Source: Catellatospora sp. TT07R-123
GTDB taxonomy: Bacteria > Actinomycetota > Actinomycetes > Mycobacteriales > Micromonosporaceae
Assembly: GCF_018327705.1 (NCBI RefSeq)
Contig: NZ_BNEM01000002.1
Coordinates: 2,728,001-2,792,000, forward strand
Reading direction: 5' to 3'
Length of the DNA stretch: 64,000 nucleotides
Positions 3,930-59,653 of the stretch are shown here, one piece after another (the stretch's first letter is position 1; each line of letters opens with the position of its first letter). The notes beneath the pieces are model-generated. The model did not search any database, had not been told where the DNA came from, and worked only from the letters and a program-made list of their open reading frames with translations. The position numbers and the translations under genes are program-made.

Positions 3930-5342
3930 ATGTCGGACACCCCGTCGCTGCGGCGGCGCACCTTCCTCGCGGCCTCGGCCGCGGCTGGCGCGGCGGCCGC
4001 CGCCGGCCTGCCGTCCCAGCCCGCCCAGGCGGCCGCCACCCGCCCGAACATCCTGATCATCGTCACCGACGACCAGCCGAAGAACACCCAGTGGGCCACC
4101 GGCAAGACCATCGGCTGGCTCGGCGACCACGGCGTCACGTTCGCCAACGCGTTCTCGGTGACGCCGCTGTGCGCGCCGTCGCGCTCGACCATCTTCACCG
4201 GGCAGTACGCGCACAACCACGGCGTACGCGGCAACCAGCACCAGGAGAACCTGAACCACCACGCCACCGTGCAGCGCTACCTCCAGGAGGCGGGCTACCG
4301 CACCGGCCTGTACGGCAAGTACCTCAACGGCTGGGACGTGCACGACAACCCGCCGTACTTCGACGAGTTCGCGCTGCTCGCGCCCATCACGTACAACGAC
4401 GGCCAGTACAACGTCGACGGCACCGTGCAGACGATCAACGGGTACACCACCACCGTCGTCAAGAACCGGGCGCTGCAGTTCCTCCAGCGCAGCACCACCG
4501 ACACCCGCCCCTGGTTCCTGTACGTCGCCCCGAAGGCCCCGCACGGCCCGAACACCCCGGACATCCCGTACGCCGACACCGAGGTCCCGGCCTGGGACGG
4601 CCGTCCCGGCGTGCCGGAGAACGACCGCTCGGACAAGCCCGCCTACATCAAGAACGCCGACGGCACCCTGGCCGACGGCAGGAACATCCGCACCAACCAG
4701 CTGCGCACGCTGCTGTCGGTCGACGACGCGGTGCAGGCCATCCACGACAAGCTCGAAGCCCTCGGTCAGCTGGAGAACACGCTGGTGTTCTACATCTCCG
4801 ACAACGGCTTCGCCTGGGCCGACCACGGCTGGACCAAGAAGTCGGTGCCCTACGGCCCGTCGATCGAGGTGCCGTTCCGGGTGTCGTGGCCCGCGGGCGG
4901 GCTCAACACCGGCGCCACCGACAACCGGCTCACCGGCAACATCGACATCGCCCCGACGATCCTGGCCGCCGCCGGGATCACCCCGGACGCCCAGCACCCG
5001 CAGGACGGGCACTCGCTGCTGGGCGCCTACCGCCGCGACCACATCCTGACCGAGTTCTTCAAGCACGGCACCGCGGCGGGCGGCCCGCCGAGCTGGTCGT
5101 CGTACGTCACCGCCACCAAGCAGTACACCGAGTACCGCGACGTGCACACCGACGCCAACGGCATCCCGACCGGCAGCGGCGCGGTGCTGTTCCGCGAGTA
5201 CTACGACCTGGTCAACGACCCGCACCAGCTCACCAACCTGCTCTACCAGTCCACCCCGGCCCAGGAGACGGCGCTGGGCATCCCCGCCCTGGCCGCCCAG
5301 CTCGCCGCCGACCGCACCAGCTCCGGCGCCACCGCCCCGTAA
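3930..5342 (+). CDS. Tat-exported sulfatase
   Basis: A 470-aa arylsulfatase-family enzyme that hydrolyses sulfate esters outside the cell. The N-terminus has a twin-arginine signal (LRRRTFLAASAAAG). Domain landmarks are the metal-binding IVTDDQPKNTQW (D47, D48) and the C-x-P-S-R signature at C81 (CAPSRSTIFTG), whose Cys is converted to formylglycine. A later DNGFAWADHG segment is also typical. GGAAAGG precedes the ATG. The converting enzyme is encoded immediately downstream (5470), and a Cys-containing leader peptide lies upstream. Together this suggests sulfur scavenging. The substrate is not predictable. Confidence 0.92.
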   Translation: MSDTPSLRRRTFLAASAAAGAAAAAGLPSQPAQAAATRPNILIIVTDDQPKNTQWATGKTIGWLGDHGVTFANAFSVTPLCAPSRSTIFTGQYAHNHGVRGNQHQENLNHHATVQRYLQEAGYRTGLYGKYLNGWDVHDNPPYFDEFALLAPITYNDGQYNVDGTVQTINGYTTTVVKNRALQFLQRSTTDTRPWFLYVAPKAPHGPNTPDIPYADTEVPAWDGRPGVPENDRSDKPAYIKNADGTLADGRNIRTNQLRTLLSVDDAVQAIHDKLEALGQLENTLVFYISDNGFAWADHGWTKKSVPYGPSIEVPFRVSWPAGGLNTGATDNRLTGNIDIAPTILAAAGITPDAQHPQDGHSLLGAYRRDHILTEFFKHGTAAGGPPSWSSYVTATKQYTEYRDVHTDANGIPTGSGAVLFREYYDLVNDPHQLTNLLYQSTPAQETALGIPALAAQLAADRTSSGATAP

Positions 5343-17631: not shown

Positions 17632-18366
17632 ATGGCCAAGCTCAACCAGATAATCGCGGTCGAGAAGGGCGTCAAGAGCCGCTCGTTTCAGGACCTGACC
17701 GAGGCCCACCACGCCGTGCAGAAGCCGGCGCTGCTGTCGGGCATCTCGCGGACATACCAGGCCAAGGACGAGGAGGGCGAGCAGCTGCCGCCGGAGTCGA
17801 CCCGGGTGCAGACCCGCGCCGAGGACGTGCTGCGGCAGATCTCGACGACGCTGACCCGCCTGTTCGACGTGACGGCCACCAAGGACGCCACCAACTGCGT
17901 CGCGCGCGCCGACGTCGTCGTGGACGACCGGGTGCTGCTGTCCGACGTGCCGGTGACGTACCTGCTGTTCCTGGAGAAGCAGCTCACCGACCTGCACACC
18001 TTCGTCAAGAAGCTGCCGGTGCTGGACGCGGCCGAGTCGTGGGTGTTCAGCGACTCCGCCGACTGCTGGTCGACCGAGCCGGTGCGTACGATCCGCACCA
18101 AGAAGGTGCCGCGCAACCACGTCAAGGCCGAGGCCACCGAGAAGCACCCGGCGCAGGTCGAGGTGTACTACGAGGACATCGCGGTGGGCTACTGGACCAC
18201 GGTGAAGTTCTCCGGGTCGCTGCCGGCCAAGCGCGTGTCGGTGCTGCTGGACCGGGTGGAGCGGCTCCAGGAGGCGGTCAAGTTCGCCCGCGAGCGGGCC
18301 AACGACACCGAGACCGTCGACCGCCGAGTCGGCGAGAAGGTGTTCGGGTTCCTCTTCGCCGCATGA
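17632..18366 (+). CDS. Conserved actinobacterial protein of unknown function (DUF7873-like)
   Basis: A 244-aa soluble protein with no signal peptide or membrane segment. It starts MAKLNQIIAVEKGVKSRSFQ and is strongly conserved in Streptomyces and relatives by recall; I believe the family is DUF7873. Visible features are DLTEAHHAVQKPALLSGISR, a TKDATNCVARADVVVDDR segment, a basic TKKVPRNHVKAEATEKHP patch suited to nucleic-acid contact, and a C-terminal helix rich in Arg/Glu. Its gene is followed directly by two tRNA-like, Y-RNA-like elements (18414-18681). The linkage suggests, but does not prove, an RNA-related role. It is not a TROVE/Ro60 protein. Confidence 0.8.
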   Translation: MAKLNQIIAVEKGVKSRSFQDLTEAHHAVQKPALLSGISRTYQAKDEEGEQLPPESTRVQTRAEDVLRQISTTLTRLFDVTATKDATNCVARADVVVDDRVLLSDVPVTYLLFLEKQLTDLHTFVKKLPVLDAAESWVFSDSADCWSTEPVRTIRTKKVPRNHVKAEATEKHPAQVEVYYEDIAVGYWTTVKFSGSLPAKRVSVLLDRVERLQEAVKFARERANDTETVDRRVGEKVFGFLFAA

Positions 18367-18375
18367 TCACAGACT

Positions 18376-18397
18376 CCCCCCGCCGGAGGGCGGGGGG
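18376..18397. terminator. GC hairpin after the unknown-function gene
   Basis: CCCCCCGC (18376-18383) and GCGGGGGG (18390-18397) form an 8-bp stem with loop CGGAGG, 9 bp after the stop codon. It may terminate the mRNA or form the 5' boundary of the RNA region. A second small stem, GCGC-CAATGA-GCGC (18399-18412), follows. Confidence 0.5.
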
Positions 18398-18413
18398 TGC
18401 GCCAATGAGCGCA

Positions 18414-18547
18414 AGCTGAAGCTGACGCTGAAGCTGACGAACGCGGTCCAGTGCAGGTTCGACTCCTGCCCCCCGCACCACAGGCGGGGGTAGCCCAAAC
18501 GGCAGAGGCAGCCGCGATCAAACTCAGATTCTCGCTCCAGACTCAGC
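18414..18547 (+). ncRNA. Y-RNA-like / permuted tRNA-like RNA 1
   Basis: The order is stalk 5' strand with GACGAACG (18436-18443); AC-stem 3' strand GCGGT (18443-18447); variable loop CCAGT; T-arm GCAGG-TTCGACT-CCTGC (18453-18469); acceptor 3' strand CCCCCGC (18470-18476); loop ACCACAG; acceptor 5' strand GCGGGGG (18484-18490); U8-A9; D-arm GCCCAAACGGCAGAGGC with GG in the loop; A26; AC-stem 5' strand GCCGC (18511-18515). Acceptor 7/7 bp, T-stem 5/5, AC-stem 5/5 with one G-U. Flanks re-pair (GCTGA/TCAGC, CTGA/TCAG) into a stalk. GACGAACG fits the Ro60-binding consensus GNCGAAN(0-1)G recalled for bacterial Y RNAs. Ends are approximate. Confidence 0.65.
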
Positions 18548-18573
18548 ATTCGCCGCCGATCGCCAGATCGACC

Positions 18574-18681
18574 GCGTACGGACGAACACCGCCGGGGTGC
18601 CGGTTCGAATCCGGTTCGCCGCTCTCCATGCGGCGATGGTTCAAAGGTAGAGCACGGGGTATTGACGACTGATCCGTTCGC
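18574..18681 (+). ncRNA. Y-RNA-like / permuted tRNA-like RNA 2
   Basis: The topology matches RNA 1. The stalk GCGTACGGA (18574-18582) pairs with TCCGTTCGC (18673-18681), 8 of 9 bp. GACGAAC follows on the 5' strand (18581-18587), and ATTGACG (18661-18667) faces it, close to the UUGACC recalled for the 3' strand of Ro60-binding helices. The T-arm is GCCGG-TTCGAAT-CCGGT (18599-18615). Acceptor strands TCGCCGC (18616-18622) and GCGGCGA (18630-18636) pair perfectly across loop TCTCCAT, again 7 nt. The D-arm GTTC-AAAGGTA-GAGC (18639-18653) is canonical. The AC stem is imperfect (CGGGGT with AACACCG). Ends are approximate. Confidence 0.62.
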
Positions 18682-18720
18682 TTAAACGTGCTGGCGTGTG
18701 CAATTCGGCGGCACAGCGGG

Positions 18721-18747
18721 GCCCGGGAGCTGGACATACTCCCGGGC
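18721..18747. terminator. Hairpin ending the tRNA-like RNA region
   Basis: GCCCGGGAG (18721-18729) pairs with CTCCCGGGC (18739-18747) around loop CTGGACATA, a perfect 9-bp stem. TCCACCATTT follows. It is positioned as a terminator for the RNA region; a weaker stem (GTGCTG/CGGCAC, 18688-18714) precedes it. Confidence 0.55.
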
Positions 18748-18750
18748 TCC

Positions 18751-18797
18751 ACCATTTCCGAGATGCGCTCCCGACCATTTACCGAGATGCGCTCCCG
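18751..18797 (+). repeat. Tandem direct repeat, two units
   Basis: ACCATTTCCGAGATGCGCTC plus CCG (18751-18773) is followed by the same unit with one inserted A (18774-18797). The units begin with the ACCA that ends the preceding hairpin region and stop 20 bp before the next start codon. Confidence 0.7.
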
Positions 18798-18805
18798 TTT
18801 TGCCG

Positions 18806-18817
18806 TAAATTCATGTT
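18806..18817 (+). promoter_or_regulatory. -10 box for a leaderless transcript
   Basis: TAAATT (18806-18811) stands 6 bp before the ATG at 18818. There is no ribosome binding site, so the mRNA probably starts at the A of the start codon. The -35 would fall within the tandem repeat. Confidence 0.4.
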
Positions 18818-19570
18818 ATGTCCGAACAACAGCGGCAGCCCGGGCTCACCGGGCTGGCCCTCGGTGCCGCGGTCCTGGTCGCCGAGCGGCTGCGCCGGCT
18901 GGGCGGCACCGACCCCGAAGACCAGCAGCGCGTACAGGACCTGCTCACCAGCGGGGTCGAGCCGGCGCTGGTTGACGCCCGCTCCCCGCTGGCCGTCGCC
19001 GTCGGCCTCACCCAGCAGGGCGCCGACCTGGCCCGCCAGACCGGCGCGAGACTCGCCGCGACCGGCCGCGACCGCGCCCGGCGCCTGCTCGACGACGCCG
19101 CCTCGCCCCGGATCGCACCGCTGGCCGCCGCCCGCGACGCCGTACGGAGCACCCGCGACCGCGGCCGCGACGTCGTCGCCACCGCGGGCCTGCGCGGCCG
19201 CGACACCCTGCTCACCGGCCGCGCCGCCGCGGTACGCGCCTTCGACAGCACCGTCGAGGAGACCGTCTCGTGGCTGGAGCGCACCATCGTGCCGCGCATG
19301 GTCGACAACCTCGTCCCGCACCTGATCGACCGGGTGGTGCCGCGCCTGGTCGAGGGCGCCCTGCCCGAGATCAGGCACAAGGTCATCCCGGTCGTCATCG
19401 ACGACCTCACCCGCGACCCGCGACTGCAGGCGCTCATCACCGAGCAGAGCCGCGGCGTGCTCGCCAACGCCGCCGACGAGCTGCGCACCACCTCGGCCAC
19501 CGCCGACGACCGGATCGAGGAGTCGTTCCGGCGGCTGTTCCACGTGCACCATACGAACGGTGACCGGTGA
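18818..19570 (+). CDS. Helical hypothetical protein paired with an RDD protein
   Basis: A 250-aa Ala/Arg-rich, mostly helical soluble protein. The middle (about 145-190) has an amphipathic stretch, LERTIVPRMVDNLVPHLIDR followed by VVPRLVEGALPEIRHKVIPV, that could lie on a membrane. The stop overlaps the GTG of the next gene (an RDD membrane protein) by 4 bp, so the two are translated together. This parallels the RDD protein at 10197, where a helical tail is fused to the RDD domain. No known function. Confidence 0.65.
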   Translation: MSEQQRQPGLTGLALGAAVLVAERLRRLGGTDPEDQQRVQDLLTSGVEPALVDARSPLAVAVGLTQQGADLARQTGARLAATGRDRARRLLDDAASPRIAPLAAARDAVRSTRDRGRDVVATAGLRGRDTLLTGRAAAVRAFDSTVEETVSWLERTIVPRMVDNLVPHLIDRVVPRLVEGALPEIRHKVIPVVIDDLTRDPRLQALITEQSRGVLANAADELRTTSATADDRIEESFRRLFHVHHTNGDR

Positions 19571-43163: not shown

Positions 43164-43955
43164 GTGAACGGGGACGGGTCCACAGACGGATGGTCGGCGC
43201 GACGCGACCGGGTCGTGTCAGCGGCGCTGGCGCGGCTGCGCCGGTTCCCGCGCGACGATCCCGCCTGGGCGCAGGCCCGCGACGAGGCCATCAACGCCGC
43301 GATCCCGCTGGCCCGCAGGCTGGCGCGCCGGTTCAGCTTCCGCGGCGAGGAACTCGACGACCTCACCCAGGTCGCCCTGCTCGGGCTGATCAAGTCGGTC
43401 GACCGCTTCGACGTCGCCCAGGGCGTACGGTTCGAGCGCTTCGCCGCCCCGACGATGCTCGGCGAGCTGCGCCGCCACTTCCGCGACCGGGGCTGGACCC
43501 TGCGCGTGCACCGCCGCCTCCAGGAACTGCACCTGGAGATCAACCGGAGCATCCCGCAGCTGTGCCAGCGGCTCCAGCGCACCCCGCAGGTCGGCGACCT
43601 CGCCGACCACCTCCACCGCGACCCCGACGAGATCCGCGCCGGGATGGCCTGCGCCAGCGCGTACGCCGTCGGCTCGCTCAACAGCATGGTCAGCACCGGC
43701 GGCAGCCTCGCCGAGCTCGGCGAGCTGCTCGGCGCGGCCGACGCCCGGCTGGAGTCGCTGGCCGACCAGCACGTCGTCCGCCAGGCCGTCGCCGCCCTGC
43801 CTCAGCGCGACCGGCACCTGCTGGCGCTGCGGTTCACCGCCGACCTGACCCAGGCCGAGATCGCCCAGCGGCTCGGCCTGTCCCAGATGCACGTGTCGCG
43901 GCTGCTCAACCGGTGCTTCGTCCAGCTGCGCGAATCACTCGGCGACCAGGCCTGA
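43164..43955 (+). CDS. SigB/SigF-type RNA polymerase sigma factor
   Basis: A 263-aa group 3 sigma factor. Region 2 is visible in INAAIPLARRLARRFSFRGE with LDDLTQVALLGLIKSVDRFD and ERFAAPTMLGELRRHFRDRG; region 3 follows; region 4 is LTQAEIAQRLGLSQMHVSRL. This is the stress/sporulation sigma-B/F/G subfamily, usually controlled by an anti-sigma kinase and anti-anti-sigma factor. Neither is encoded here. Its 3' end overlaps the convergent glucosidase gene by 21 bp. Confidence 0.92.
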   Translation: MNGDGSTDGWSARRDRVVSAALARLRRFPRDDPAWAQARDEAINAAIPLARRLARRFSFRGEELDDLTQVALLGLIKSVDRFDVAQGVRFERFAAPTMLGELRRHFRDRGWTLRVHRRLQELHLEINRSIPQLCQRLQRTPQVGDLADHLHRDPDEIRAGMACASAYAVGSLNSMVSTGGSLAELGELLGAADARLESLADQHVVRQAVAALPQRDRHLLALRFTADLTQAEIAQRLGLSQMHVSRLLNRCFVQLRESLGDQA

Positions 43956-58162: not shown

Positions 58163-59653
58163 GTCGGCCGGAACCACTACGAACTGGCCCATCATCCCCG
58201 CGTCCTCGTGGGCGAGCAGGTGGCAGTGGAACATGTACGCCGTGTTCGGGTCCGCGTAGTCGGCGAAGCGCATGACCAGCTCGTACGGCCGGTTCGGCGG
58301 CAGGTACACGGTGTCCTTCCAGCCCGCCAGCCACGGCGGCGGTGCGTGGCCGTCCACGCTCGCGACCTGGAACTGCACGTCGTGGATGTGGAAGTTGTGC
58401 GGCGTCCCGTCGTTGTTGACCACCCGCCACACCTCGGTCGTGCCGAGCACCGGCGCGGCGTCGACCCGGGCCGGCTCCATGCCCTTGCCGTTGATCGCGT
58501 GCCCGCCGAGGCTGAACGACCGCCGCTGCGCCGCGCCGGACGGGTCGAGGCGTGGCACGTCCACCAGCCGCTCCGGCACCTGCGGACGTGCCACGGCCCC
58601 ACTCGACACCCGCAGCTGCAGGATGTCGAGGGTGTCCGCGCCGCCGGAGAACCGGTCGAACAGCGGCGTCCCCAGCTGCGGCGGGTAGCTGCGCAGCACG
58701 ACCCGCTCGCCCGGCGCCACGGTCACCACGATCTCGGCCCGCTCCCCCGGCGACAGCATGATCCGCGATAGGTCGGCCCGCCGCGGCAGCAGCCCGCCGT
58801 CGCTGCCGACCAGCGCGAACGTACGCCCGTCGGCGAACCCGAAGTCGTAGGAGCGCGCGTTGGACGCGTTCAGCAGCCGCAACCGCACCCGCTGCGTGGT
58901 GACCTCCAGGTACGGCCCGACCGTCCCGTTGACCGCGACCGTGTCGCCGAGCACGCCGATGCCGCTCAGGAACGGGGCGGTGTCGTCGAGCCGCCCGTCG
59001 CCGTGGAACTTCTTGTCCTGGACGATCACCGGGAAGTCGTCGACGCCGTACTCGTGCGGCAGCGCCGCCACGTCGGTGGCCGGGTCGTCGACCAGGAACA
59101 TCCCGGCCAGGCCCTGGTACACGTGCTGCGCGGTCCGCCCGTGCGGGTGCGGGTGGTACCAGAGCGTCGCGGCGGGCTGGTCGATCTGCCAGGTCGGCGA
59201 CCAGGTCGTGCCGGGTTCGATGCCCTGGTACGGCCCGCCGTCCATGCCCGCGGGCAGGTGCATGCCGTGCCAGTGCAGCGTGGTCGCCTCGTCCAGCCCG
59301 TTGGCGACGTCGACGACGACCTGCTCGCCCCGGGCCGCCCGCAGCGTCGGGCCGAGGTACGACCCGCCGTACCCCCGGGTCGGGGTGGCGCCGTGCCCGA
59401 AGTCGTGCGTGCCCGCCTGGGCCTTCAGCTCGAACACGCGCCGCCCCTGCGCGTCGAGGTGCGACGGGGCCAGCGGCGGCACCGCCAGCGGCCGGGTGAA
59501 GTCCACCTGGTCGGCGGTGGACAGCACCGCGCTGTTCCACACCCAGACCCCCGCGCCCGTACACAGCCCGCACAGCACCAGCACCGTCACGACCAGCACC
59601 ACGAGTACCTGCCTGAGCCGCACCCTGATCCCCGTCCCTCTTCCGTCCCGCAT
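58154..59653 (-). CDS. Membrane-anchored multicopper oxidase
   Basis: A 499-aa laccase-like enzyme. A signal anchor (about 12-35) is followed by three cupredoxin domains. Copper ligands lie in LHWHGMHLP, WYHPHPHGRT, HNFHIHDVQF and MFHCHLLAHEDAGMM; the last holds the T1 Cys flanked by His and a Met axial ligand. It may oxidise Cu(I), Fe(II) or phenols outside the cell. It ends 9 bp inside the convergent HTH_42 gene. The 160 bp between its start and the MFS gene hold the possible iron box. Confidence 0.9.
   Translation of the reverse strand: MRDGRGTGIRVRLRQVLVVLVVTVLVLCGLCTGAGVWVWNSAVLSTADQVDFTRPLAVPPLAPSHLDAQGRRVFELKAQAGTHDFGHGATPTRGYGGSYLGPTLRAARGEQVVVDVANGLDEATTLHWHGMHLPAGMDGGPYQGIEPGTTWSPTWQIDQPAATLWYHPHPHGRTAQHVYQGLAGMFLVDDPATDVAALPHEYGVDDFPVIVQDKKFHGDGRLDDTAPFLSGIGVLGDTVAVNGTVGPYLEVTTQRVRLRLLNASNARSYDFGFADGRTFALVGSDGGLLPRRADLSRIMLSPGERAEIVVTVAPGERVVLRSYPPQLGTPLFDRFSGGADTLDILQLRVSSGAVARPQVPERLVDVPRLDPSGAAQRRSFSLGGHAINGKGMEPARVDAAPVLGTTEVWRVVNNDGTPHNFHIHDVQFQVASVDGHAPPPWLAGWKDTVYLPPNRPYELVMRFADYADPNTAYMFHCHLLAHEDAGMMGQFVVVPADSR

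Follow-up and report, generated by a model that had tools for sequence, protein, structure and literature searches.

The stretch considered here, 64,000 nucleotides of the genome of Catellatospora sp. TT07R-123 (contig NZ_BNEM01000002.1; hereafter the window, numbered from its first letter), carries directly downstream of a DUF7873 gene two tRNA-like elements, which the first-pass annotation described as two Y RNAs with a Ro60-binding signature. With a probability of about 0.7, we regard them instead as the arms of one conserved two-armed non-coding RNA (ncRNA) of approximately 350 nt, for which the neighboring DUF7873 gene supplies a regular partner, and which forms a dedicated ribonucleoprotein (RNP) with DUF7873 and mimics tRNA. 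The whole structured RNA, from 5′ hairpin to 3′ hairpin, is placed at 18398..18750 of the forward strand (as are all features named below for the window), its limits being approximate and its ends deduced from conservation in 67 aligned sequences, covariation, and folding of the window RNA.

Each element is a circularly permuted tRNA body: in gene order, the T-arm comes first, then the two acceptor strands (3′ before 5′) around a short spacer, and finally the D-arm, and a stalk in place of the anticodon loop leads into a conserved core (helices P0 and P1, the word AUCGACC, and CUUAAACG). The permuted folds, with the anticodon stem continuing into a stalk, had been proposed in the first-pass annotation and were reproduced here in their particulars. 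Acceptor strands pair in 7/7 positions across loops of 7 nt, CCCCCGC/GCGGGGG over ACCACAG (A73 plus CCA) in arm 1 (18470..18490) and TCGCCGC/GCGGCGA over TCTCCAT (UCUCCAU in RNA) in arm 2 (18616..18636). Both T-arms have 5-bp stems (GCAGG-TTCGACT-CCTGC at 18453..18469 in arm 1; 18599..18615 with one G-U pair in arm 2), and both arms possess U8, a D-arm with GG, and A26, the D-arm being of class-II style with 3 bp and preceded by A9 in arm 1 (18491..18510) and of class-I style with 4 bp, following position 9, in arm 2 (18637..18654). The anticodon stem of arm 1, GCGGU/GCCGC (3′ strand at 18443..18447, partner at 18511-18515), is formed by 5/5 pairs including one G-U and leaves a variable loop of 5 nt. 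The words GACGAAC (18436 and 18581) and UUGACG (18662), initially attributed to the stalks, are likewise in place. A strict arm grammar (5/5 T-stem, 7/7 acceptor, U8, and D-arm with GG) finds exactly two matches in the 64 kb window if both strands are scanned.

Comparison with other carriers was based on a bacterial set, comprising the best 80 of 551 confirmed DUF7873 relatives from a scan of genome contigs, and on a viral set of 92 loci, which includes the best 80 of 201 confirmed IMG/VR stretches. For the 80 bacterial relatives the strict grammar gives 138 matches within 900 nt after DUF7873, none in 590,913 bases outside and none on the other strand, while in the 92 viral loci 118 matches fall inside this range and nine outside it on the coding strand, the opposite strand contributing one. 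Since U8, D-loop GG, U55, C56, A or C at position 58, and the G53-C61 pair were demanded by the scan (acceptor, T, and D pairs partly demanded as well), their presence is no evidence of tRNA likeness; T54 and a purine at position 57, neither of which was demanded, occur in all 83 unique arm-1 and all 81 unique arm-2 sequences. The discriminator is A in 72 of 83 arms 1, and U (49/81) or G (28/81) in arms 2. NCCA follows the acceptor in 44/83 and 23/81 sequences, respectively (means for shuffled loops are 4.4 and 1.9), and C74 in 74/83 and 79/81. The length of acceptor loops varies from 4 to 74 nt, and among 39 arms with loops of at least 15 nt C74 is present in 36 and NCCA in 11. These features of the acceptor loops are consistent with processing by RNase P and RNase Z, as far as sequence can tell. 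The CCA is not peculiar to the two-armed RNA, because a Y RNA linked to a TROVE gene (locus L205; L and G numbers are our labels of loci and genomes) also has an ACCA loop. In two loci, L043 (about 4990-5115) and L228, the acceptor loop of arm 2 contains a long insert, with GAGTC/GACTC-like words discernible by eye in L043; it looks as though foreign DNA had inserted into the acceptor spacer and left the arms intact.

The arms were selected by pairing, so that their percentages of paired positions lean high; two further helices, stalk 2 (18574..18582 with 18673-18681) and P1 (18561..18566 with 18691-18696), were not used in selecting sequences. Candidates with acceptor loops of no more than 11 nt (36 full-length, 50 arm-1, and 37 arm-2 sequences) entered three alignments, to each of which the window sequence was added: A2 for stalk 2 and P1 alone (36 sequences), A3 for arm 1 (49 sequences), and A4 for arm 2 with its stalk (37 sequences). 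Candidate L181 was excluded from A2 and A4, and candidates L164 and L024 from A3. Double changes were found at 15/15 pairs of A2 (score 0.704 against 0.252 for shuffled and at most 0.172 for slid alignments), at 14/16 pairs of A3 (0.538 against 0.139 and at most 0.140), and at 22/24 pairs of A4 (0.755 against 0.220 and at most 0.182), and all three scores exceed every one of 500 shuffles and every slid version. The acceptor stems of both arms have double changes at 7/7 pairs, stalk 2 at 9/9 (84.0% paired), and P1 at 6/6 (94.9% paired). Covariation in stalk 2 and P1 is thus very strong, and the acceptor and stalk helices, for which the first-pass annotation had proposed such a check, do covary. 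RNAalifold predicted 47 pairs for the 36 full-length sequences, at least one double change being observed in 40 of them, and added the 9-bp stalk 2 and P1 enclosing domain 2.

Pairing of the remaining helices was assessed in 58 non-redundant loci, chosen out of 104 that have two arms 120-180 nt apart among 172 scanned. In a cross-species duplex test the domain-1 stalk, both anticodon stems, and stalk 2 outperformed 2000/2000 permutations, and none of 2000 permutations was as good as the own pairing of P0; thus for all of these helices pairing within species is better than between species. Shuffles preserving composition were beaten by the domain-1 stalk in 57 of 58 loci (by its outer half in 46), by the anticodon stems of arm 1 and arm 2 in 53 and 57, and by stalk 2 in 49. 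With re-centred windows P1 exceeded shuffles in 56/58 loci and P0 in 47/58, the negative control being flat (26/58); badly placed windows used earlier had given weak signals (34/58 and 38/58 for P1, 27/58 for P0). In the window RNA, the 5′ strand of the domain-1 stalk with its CUGA repeats (18414..18442) was assigned by its pairing to the 75 nt that immediately follow arm 1, and the segment 18511..18547, which unites the anticodon-stem 5′ strand of arm 1 with the 3′ strand of this stalk and the conserved CUCGCUCCAG, by conservation, pairing, and word count. P0 is formed by GCCGCCGA (18552..18559) and 18705-18712 according to the fold of the window RNA and the pairing test, and the latter also supports the stretch from the anticodon-stem 5′ strand of arm 2 through an internal loop to the 3′ strand of stalk 2 (18655..18681). 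Folded alone, the window RNA forms P1, the domain-1 stalk, the 5′ hairpin, and the long-range helix P0.

In the 67 aligned sequences, the region that separates the arms and the one behind arm 2 are conserved like the arms themselves; 11 bacterial loci lacking the text anchor and three others were not part of this alignment. Three conserved words were counted in the 58 loci: GCUCNR, which belongs to the segment 18511..18547 (45/58, control 15/57), RAUCRA (46/58, control 7/57), and UUAAAHG (43/58, control 0/57). The second corresponds in the window to the unpaired AUCGACC at 18567..18573, and the third supports, together with covariation and pairing, the segment 18681..18712, where CUUAAACG is combined with the 3′ strands of P1 (18691-18696) and P0 (18705-18712). 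If the acceptor loop is not counted, the arms stand 134-145 nt apart in 98 of the 109 loci where the grammar matches at least twice. By the full grammar, two arms are present in 61, one in 16, three matches in one, and none in two of the 80 bacterial loci; corresponding numbers for the 92 viral loci are 44, 33, three, and 12. In L042, L059, L061, L064, L072, and L081 a plain hairpin substitutes for the tRNA part of arm 1, core and arm 2 being kept, and the Rhizobium phage locus L177 resembles them (both by eye). The narrow range of spacing, the conserved core, and the hairpin variants suggest that both arms and the core belong to a single transcript of approximately 350 nt.

The upstream gene (17632-18366) encodes a protein of 244 aa matching PF25283 at 395 bits against a cut-off of 27, and in 78 of the 80 bacterial loci the permuted T-arm/acceptor motif is found no more than 900 nt after the DUF7873 stop. 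A covariance model of arm 2 and its stalk (R1), which 20 of the 80 bacterial and 16 of the 92 viral loci helped to build, reaches at least 73.5 bits in 78/80 bacterial loci; the exceptions are L043, with weak matches only (28 bits, long acceptor loop), and L056, with none. DUF7873 is present in six of 296 actinobacterial genomes, and these are precisely the genomes where R1 reaches 59 bits or more, 200-310 nt after DUF7873 each time, the best value among genomes lacking this gene being 54.4 bits. Another model, R2, free of any sequence from the sample concerned, was applied to 201 genomes from the phylum of a Ktedonobacterales genome (Chloroflexota sample) and matched in all 13 that encode DUF7873. 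Twelve genomes, each of which encodes DUF7873, attain 59 bits or more with R2 (the best DUF7873-negative genome has 46.9), and the thirteenth carrier, G398, contains a tandem at 42.5 and 42.1 bits. In both samples together, the level of 59 bits is attained in 18 of 19 genomes with DUF7873 and in no genome without it. This co-occurrence indicates that RNA and protein are tightly coupled. In eight of the 13 Chloroflexota-sample carriers the RNA lies outside the 1.5 kb beside DUF7873; six of them have it on a different contig, and two (G408 and G416) on the same contig at a distance of more than 100 kb, and five unlinked copies examined (L230, L231, L234, L236, and L238) keep the core. Co-occurrence without linkage therefore speaks for a joint function and against a cis-regulatory role.

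Carriers of the pair include large phages, where it often lies near tRNA genes, as well as streptomycetes, Catellatospora, and some Chloroflexota. Of 101 genomes from a single genus, taken to be Streptomyces, 50 have the DUF7873 gene, and it was also found in four records of a plasmid collection and in 73 of 50,697 phage records, which by name refer to phages of Vibrio (29), Gordonia (12), Rhizobium (12), Klebsiella (7), Serratia (6), Arthrobacter (3), Pseudanabaena (2), Rhodococcus (1), and Microcoleus (1). In Arthrobacter phage Mimi, Gordonia phage Phendrix, Rhodococcus phage NiceHouse, and Rhizobium phage RHph_TM21B, DUF7873 stands amid tRNA genes, and the RNA occupies an unannotated gap behind it. 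RNA and DUF7873 occur together in phages of Gordonia, Arthrobacter, Rhodococcus, Pseudanabaena, and Klebsiella, and also in Streptomyces and relatives. R1 attains at least 59 bits in 58 and at least 50 bits in 68 of the 92 viral loci, the RNA being placed upstream of DUF7873 in L144 and on the other strand in L137. At least one ordinary tRNA is present in 54/92 viral stretches (at least three in 32) and in 18/80 bacterial ones. Rfam models applied to 14 viral loci detected tRNA, tRNA-Sec, and one transfer-messenger RNA (tmRNA), with nothing on the two-armed RNA. Several phage loci have particular features: the tRNA array of Phendrix near the DUF7873 RNA (L172, 2072-2600) contains a tmRNA match of 89 bits, for which the record shows no feature; in RHph_TM21B (L177, L193), arm 1 of the RNA is devoid of its tRNA part, and a TROVE gene follows DUF7873 at a distance of about 5 kb; and the contig of L158 is a second viral carrier with TROVE, approximately 10 kb away.

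The AlphaFold2 (AF2) model of DUF7873, built with 63 sequences, has a mean predicted local distance difference test value (pLDDT) of 92.5 and a predicted template modeling score (pTM) of 0.76; a model based on only 21 close relatives was of poor quality (pLDDT 70.7), and its PDB matches were ignored. A Foldseek search with this model in PDB and BFVD, libraries that do not cover predicted cellular proteins, gave no match at E ≤ 1e-3, and a profile search of PDB sequences gave insignificant matches only. Conserved residues include RTKKVPRNHVKAEATxKHPAQ, and five phage relatives match PF25283 at 214-339 bits.

In the RNP that we favor, DUF7873 would sit on the RNA core, and the two heads would present elbow and acceptor to tRNA-handling enzymes such as RNase P, RNase Z, CCA-adding and modification enzymes, nucleases, and possibly the ribosome. 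The missing anticodon should rule out ordinary decoding. The RNP might shield the tRNA pool, inhibit an enzyme directed at tRNA, or act on the ribosome, and its most likely use would be control or protection of tRNA-dependent steps in infection or stress.

Several observations weigh against this reading. CCA is kept in just the 44/83 and 23/81 arms mentioned above and in 11/39 arms with long loops, while the scan in part imposes U8, the GG of the D-loop, and the pairs of acceptor, T-, and D-stems. Two of its steps, the joining of both arms and the core in one transcript of approximately 350 nt and the binding of DUF7873 to the RNA core, are ones that we infer, and a consensus promoter scan upstream of domain 1 returned three strong sites when 3.15 are expected. 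Large genome searches used stricter filters losing weak matches. Viral support is uneven: 12/92 viral loci are without any arm by grammar, and just 54/92 stretches contain an ordinary tRNA. Out of 12 named phage loci R1 reaches at least 59 bits in five (L171, L172, L174, L175, and L182) and at least 50 bits in two more (L173 and L181). Weaker matches were obtained for L177 (46.0), L180 (40.1), and L176 (40.1, but 2 kb away), L178 has 34.0 bits with R1 and 59.0 with R2, and for L179, the only locus fetched from a Vibrio phage, R1 gives no match and R2 a score of 24.6, not above that of ordinary tRNAs.

Alternative explanations overlap in part with the notion of a tRNA-mimicking RNP. The best surviving one, possible though improbable, is a tmRNA-like or double-tRNA effector of the ribosome, where RNase P and RNase Z would cut the acceptor loops, leaving a three-piece RNA with two CCA ends and DUF7873 as an SmpB-like adapter. 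The two-piece tmRNA indeed has its arms in permuted order, and like tmRNA the RNA described here combines an acceptor/T-arm tRNA-like end with a larger core; C74 in 74/83 and 79/81 arms (and in 36 of the 39 with loops of at least 15 nt), the enrichment of NCCA, and the tolerance of loops from 4 to 74 nt agree with such cutting. It differs, however, by two heads and full D-stems, CCA is found in only 23/81 arm-2 sequences, and one phage, Phendrix, also has a normal tmRNA. At gathering score the tmRNA model (RF00023) matches nowhere in the window, a search of 18360-18830 at E ≤ 10 was likewise negative, and no tag reading frame was noticed at the RNA locus by eye. A KLKLK-like reading of the 5′ stalk strand as a tag peptide was considered and dropped, since the frame is broken in several relatives (by eye). 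A bolder version, which we put forward only tentatively, combines this processing with the RNP: tRNA-processing enzymes would excise the acceptor loops and leave a three-piece two-headed RNA, whose two CCA ends could be charged or bound like those of neighboring tRNAs and which would, together with DUF7873, act as a phage-spread RNP on adjacent tRNA sites of the ribosome or of a tRNA-processing complex. If true, this would be a tRNA-mimic machine unlike any described.

That the elements are Y RNAs of YrlA type, bound by Ro60/Rsr via the stalk and by a nuclease such as PNPase via the tRNA-like head, appears unlikely. Kinship in form is evident, as both RNAs share a permuted tRNA-like module of acceptor, T-, and D-arms, a stalk made from the RNA's own ends, and tRNA mimicry without anticodon, and the permissive Rfam search gave YrlA (RF02553) as the best family; its scores of 31.9 and 24.6 bits are nonetheless far under the gathering value of 69, so that the comparison with YrlA suggested at first holds for the form only. 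The Ro60-binding consensus of bacterial Y RNAs is GNCGAAN(0-1)G on one strand and UUGACC on the other. The former occurs in 4/58 arm-1 and 3/58 arm-2 5′ strands, the latter on the opposite strand in 0/58 and 1/58. TROVE genes are present in five of six DUF7873-carrying actinobacteria and in three of 20 other carriers (one of these being the phage with a distance of about 5 kb), and were not found in 17 of these 20 genomes or records, which include the complete Ktedonobacterales chromosome (L053) and phages recorded as complete, while IMG/VR records may be fragments. Thus, by these tests (TROVE not found in most of the 20 other carriers, and a rare motif) the two-armed RNA is not a Ro60 Y RNA, and two separate Y RNAs, as first annotated, were rejected on the same grounds and in view of the conservation of a single RNA.

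The search of the host genome for TROVE, which the first-pass annotation advised, did reveal two genes, one at a distance of about 158 kb and one on another contig, but the second has separate YrlA-like RNAs of its own (L002, L003), scoring 43.2 bits with RF02553 and 39.0 and 27.5 bits with R1. Inspected by eye, this cluster (L002, 2530-2960 on the reverse strand, near position 3612700 of the other contig) contains three YrlA-like elements upstream of the TROVE gene, two with permuted tRNA heads, one of which is closed by a UUCG-type loop, and one head-less. The TROVE-linked cluster L205 (G023) has the same three-element layout, its first head bearing the ACCA acceptor loop, and L206 (G193) contains two arms similar to L205, the first with ACGA. 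R1 gives only 27-54 bits for L002, L205, and L206, which also argues against assignment of the two-armed RNA to Y RNAs. YrlA bears one module on an RNA of 90-150 nt (PMC8394870), in contrast to two modules on approximately 350 nt here, where the Ro60 motif and TROVE linkage are not kept and the partner is DUF7873. The two-armed RNA may still work like the tRNA-like module of YrlA, and comparison of the presumed RNP with the Ro60-Y RNA illustrates the way in which a module of Y-RNA type can be put to use by another protein.

A cage-forming ornate structural RNA of the GOLLD/ROOL kind is quite unlikely. GOLLD and ROOL are large structured phage RNAs often encoded near tRNA genes (PMC12286853), and this location is shared by the RNA that accompanies DUF7873. 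The two-armed RNA, however, is smaller (much shorter than GOLLD), built around tRNA-like heads, and without match to Rfam models in the window or in 14 viral loci, and it has a regular protein partner, whereas none is known for ROOL (PMC12286853). Still less probable is a cis-acting 3′ untranslated region or leader regulating DUF7873 only, as could be suspected from the position of the RNA directly after the DUF7873 gene in most loci; the location elsewhere in the genome in 8/13 Chloroflexota-sample carriers, with five unlinked copies retaining the core, speaks against it.

Ordinary, decayed, or truly permuted tRNA genes maturing to decoding tRNAs deserve almost no credence: tRNA bodies are near perfect and tandem ordinary tRNAs imitate the permuted order to models, but ARAGORN finds no ordinary tRNA at the RNA locus, tRNA matches are sub-threshold (RF00005, 20 bits against 29, spanning both arms), there is no anticodon, stalk 2 and P1 covary, the core is conserved and not tRNA-like, and arm 1 is replaceable by a hairpin, so that decayed tRNA genes, considered from the outset, are set aside as well. 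Circularly permuted tRNA genes occur in archaea and red algae, and have in common with the arms the 3′ half ahead of the 5′ half and an acceptor spacer between them; they differ from the arms, which have no anticodon and whose anticodon stems feed covarying stalks. Neighboring ordinary tRNA genes mimic a permuted tRNA to covariance models by the 3′ half of one and the 5′ half of the next (L204, L207-L214) and are thus a source of false positives for permuted-tRNA searches. Rfam assignments suggest that weaker R1 matches are adjacent ordinary tRNAs or YrlA-like RNAs.

No match at gathering score was obtained with Rfam anywhere in the window, and neither Rfam nor the open-access literature searched by titles and beginnings of abstracts, a corpus that leaves most subscription papers outside, contains a description of such an RNA. 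We rate the RNA-DUF7873 system as categorically new, its building block, the permuted tRNA-like module, being common to YrlA. The RNA apparently represents a class of large structured RNA that is not yet listed, and the protein to which it is coupled has a predicted fold that matches nothing in the libraries searched. Two permuted tRNA heads on one RNA raise the question of what recognizes two tRNA-like acceptors in fixed relation. The system also provides a testable pair of RNA and protein partners and a natural series of losses, where the tRNA part of arm 1 can be missing.

Outside the arms and the core, the window RNA begins with a 5′ hairpin, UGCGC/GCGCA (18398..18413), seen by eye in cell-encoded copies and in the window fold, and ends with a 3′ hairpin (18718..18750), possibly a terminator, whose apex is GGACA here and GGNUA in most relatives. 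The 3′ hairpin is present in 41/58 loci as compared to 2/57 in the downstream control, a U-run following it in 10/41 only. A -10-like box before the RNA was noticed by eye in single copies, e.g., L226 and L230, and a promoter of the RNA's own is at most a candidate. ARAGORN calls tRNA-SeC at 43259-43351 and tRNA-Gly at 59153-59236 of the window, neither of which is found by Rfam at gathering score, and both calls are probably false. Between the RNA and the next gene, a 16-nt direct repeat, CCGAGATGCGCTCCCG, is present at 18758-18773 and 18782-18797.

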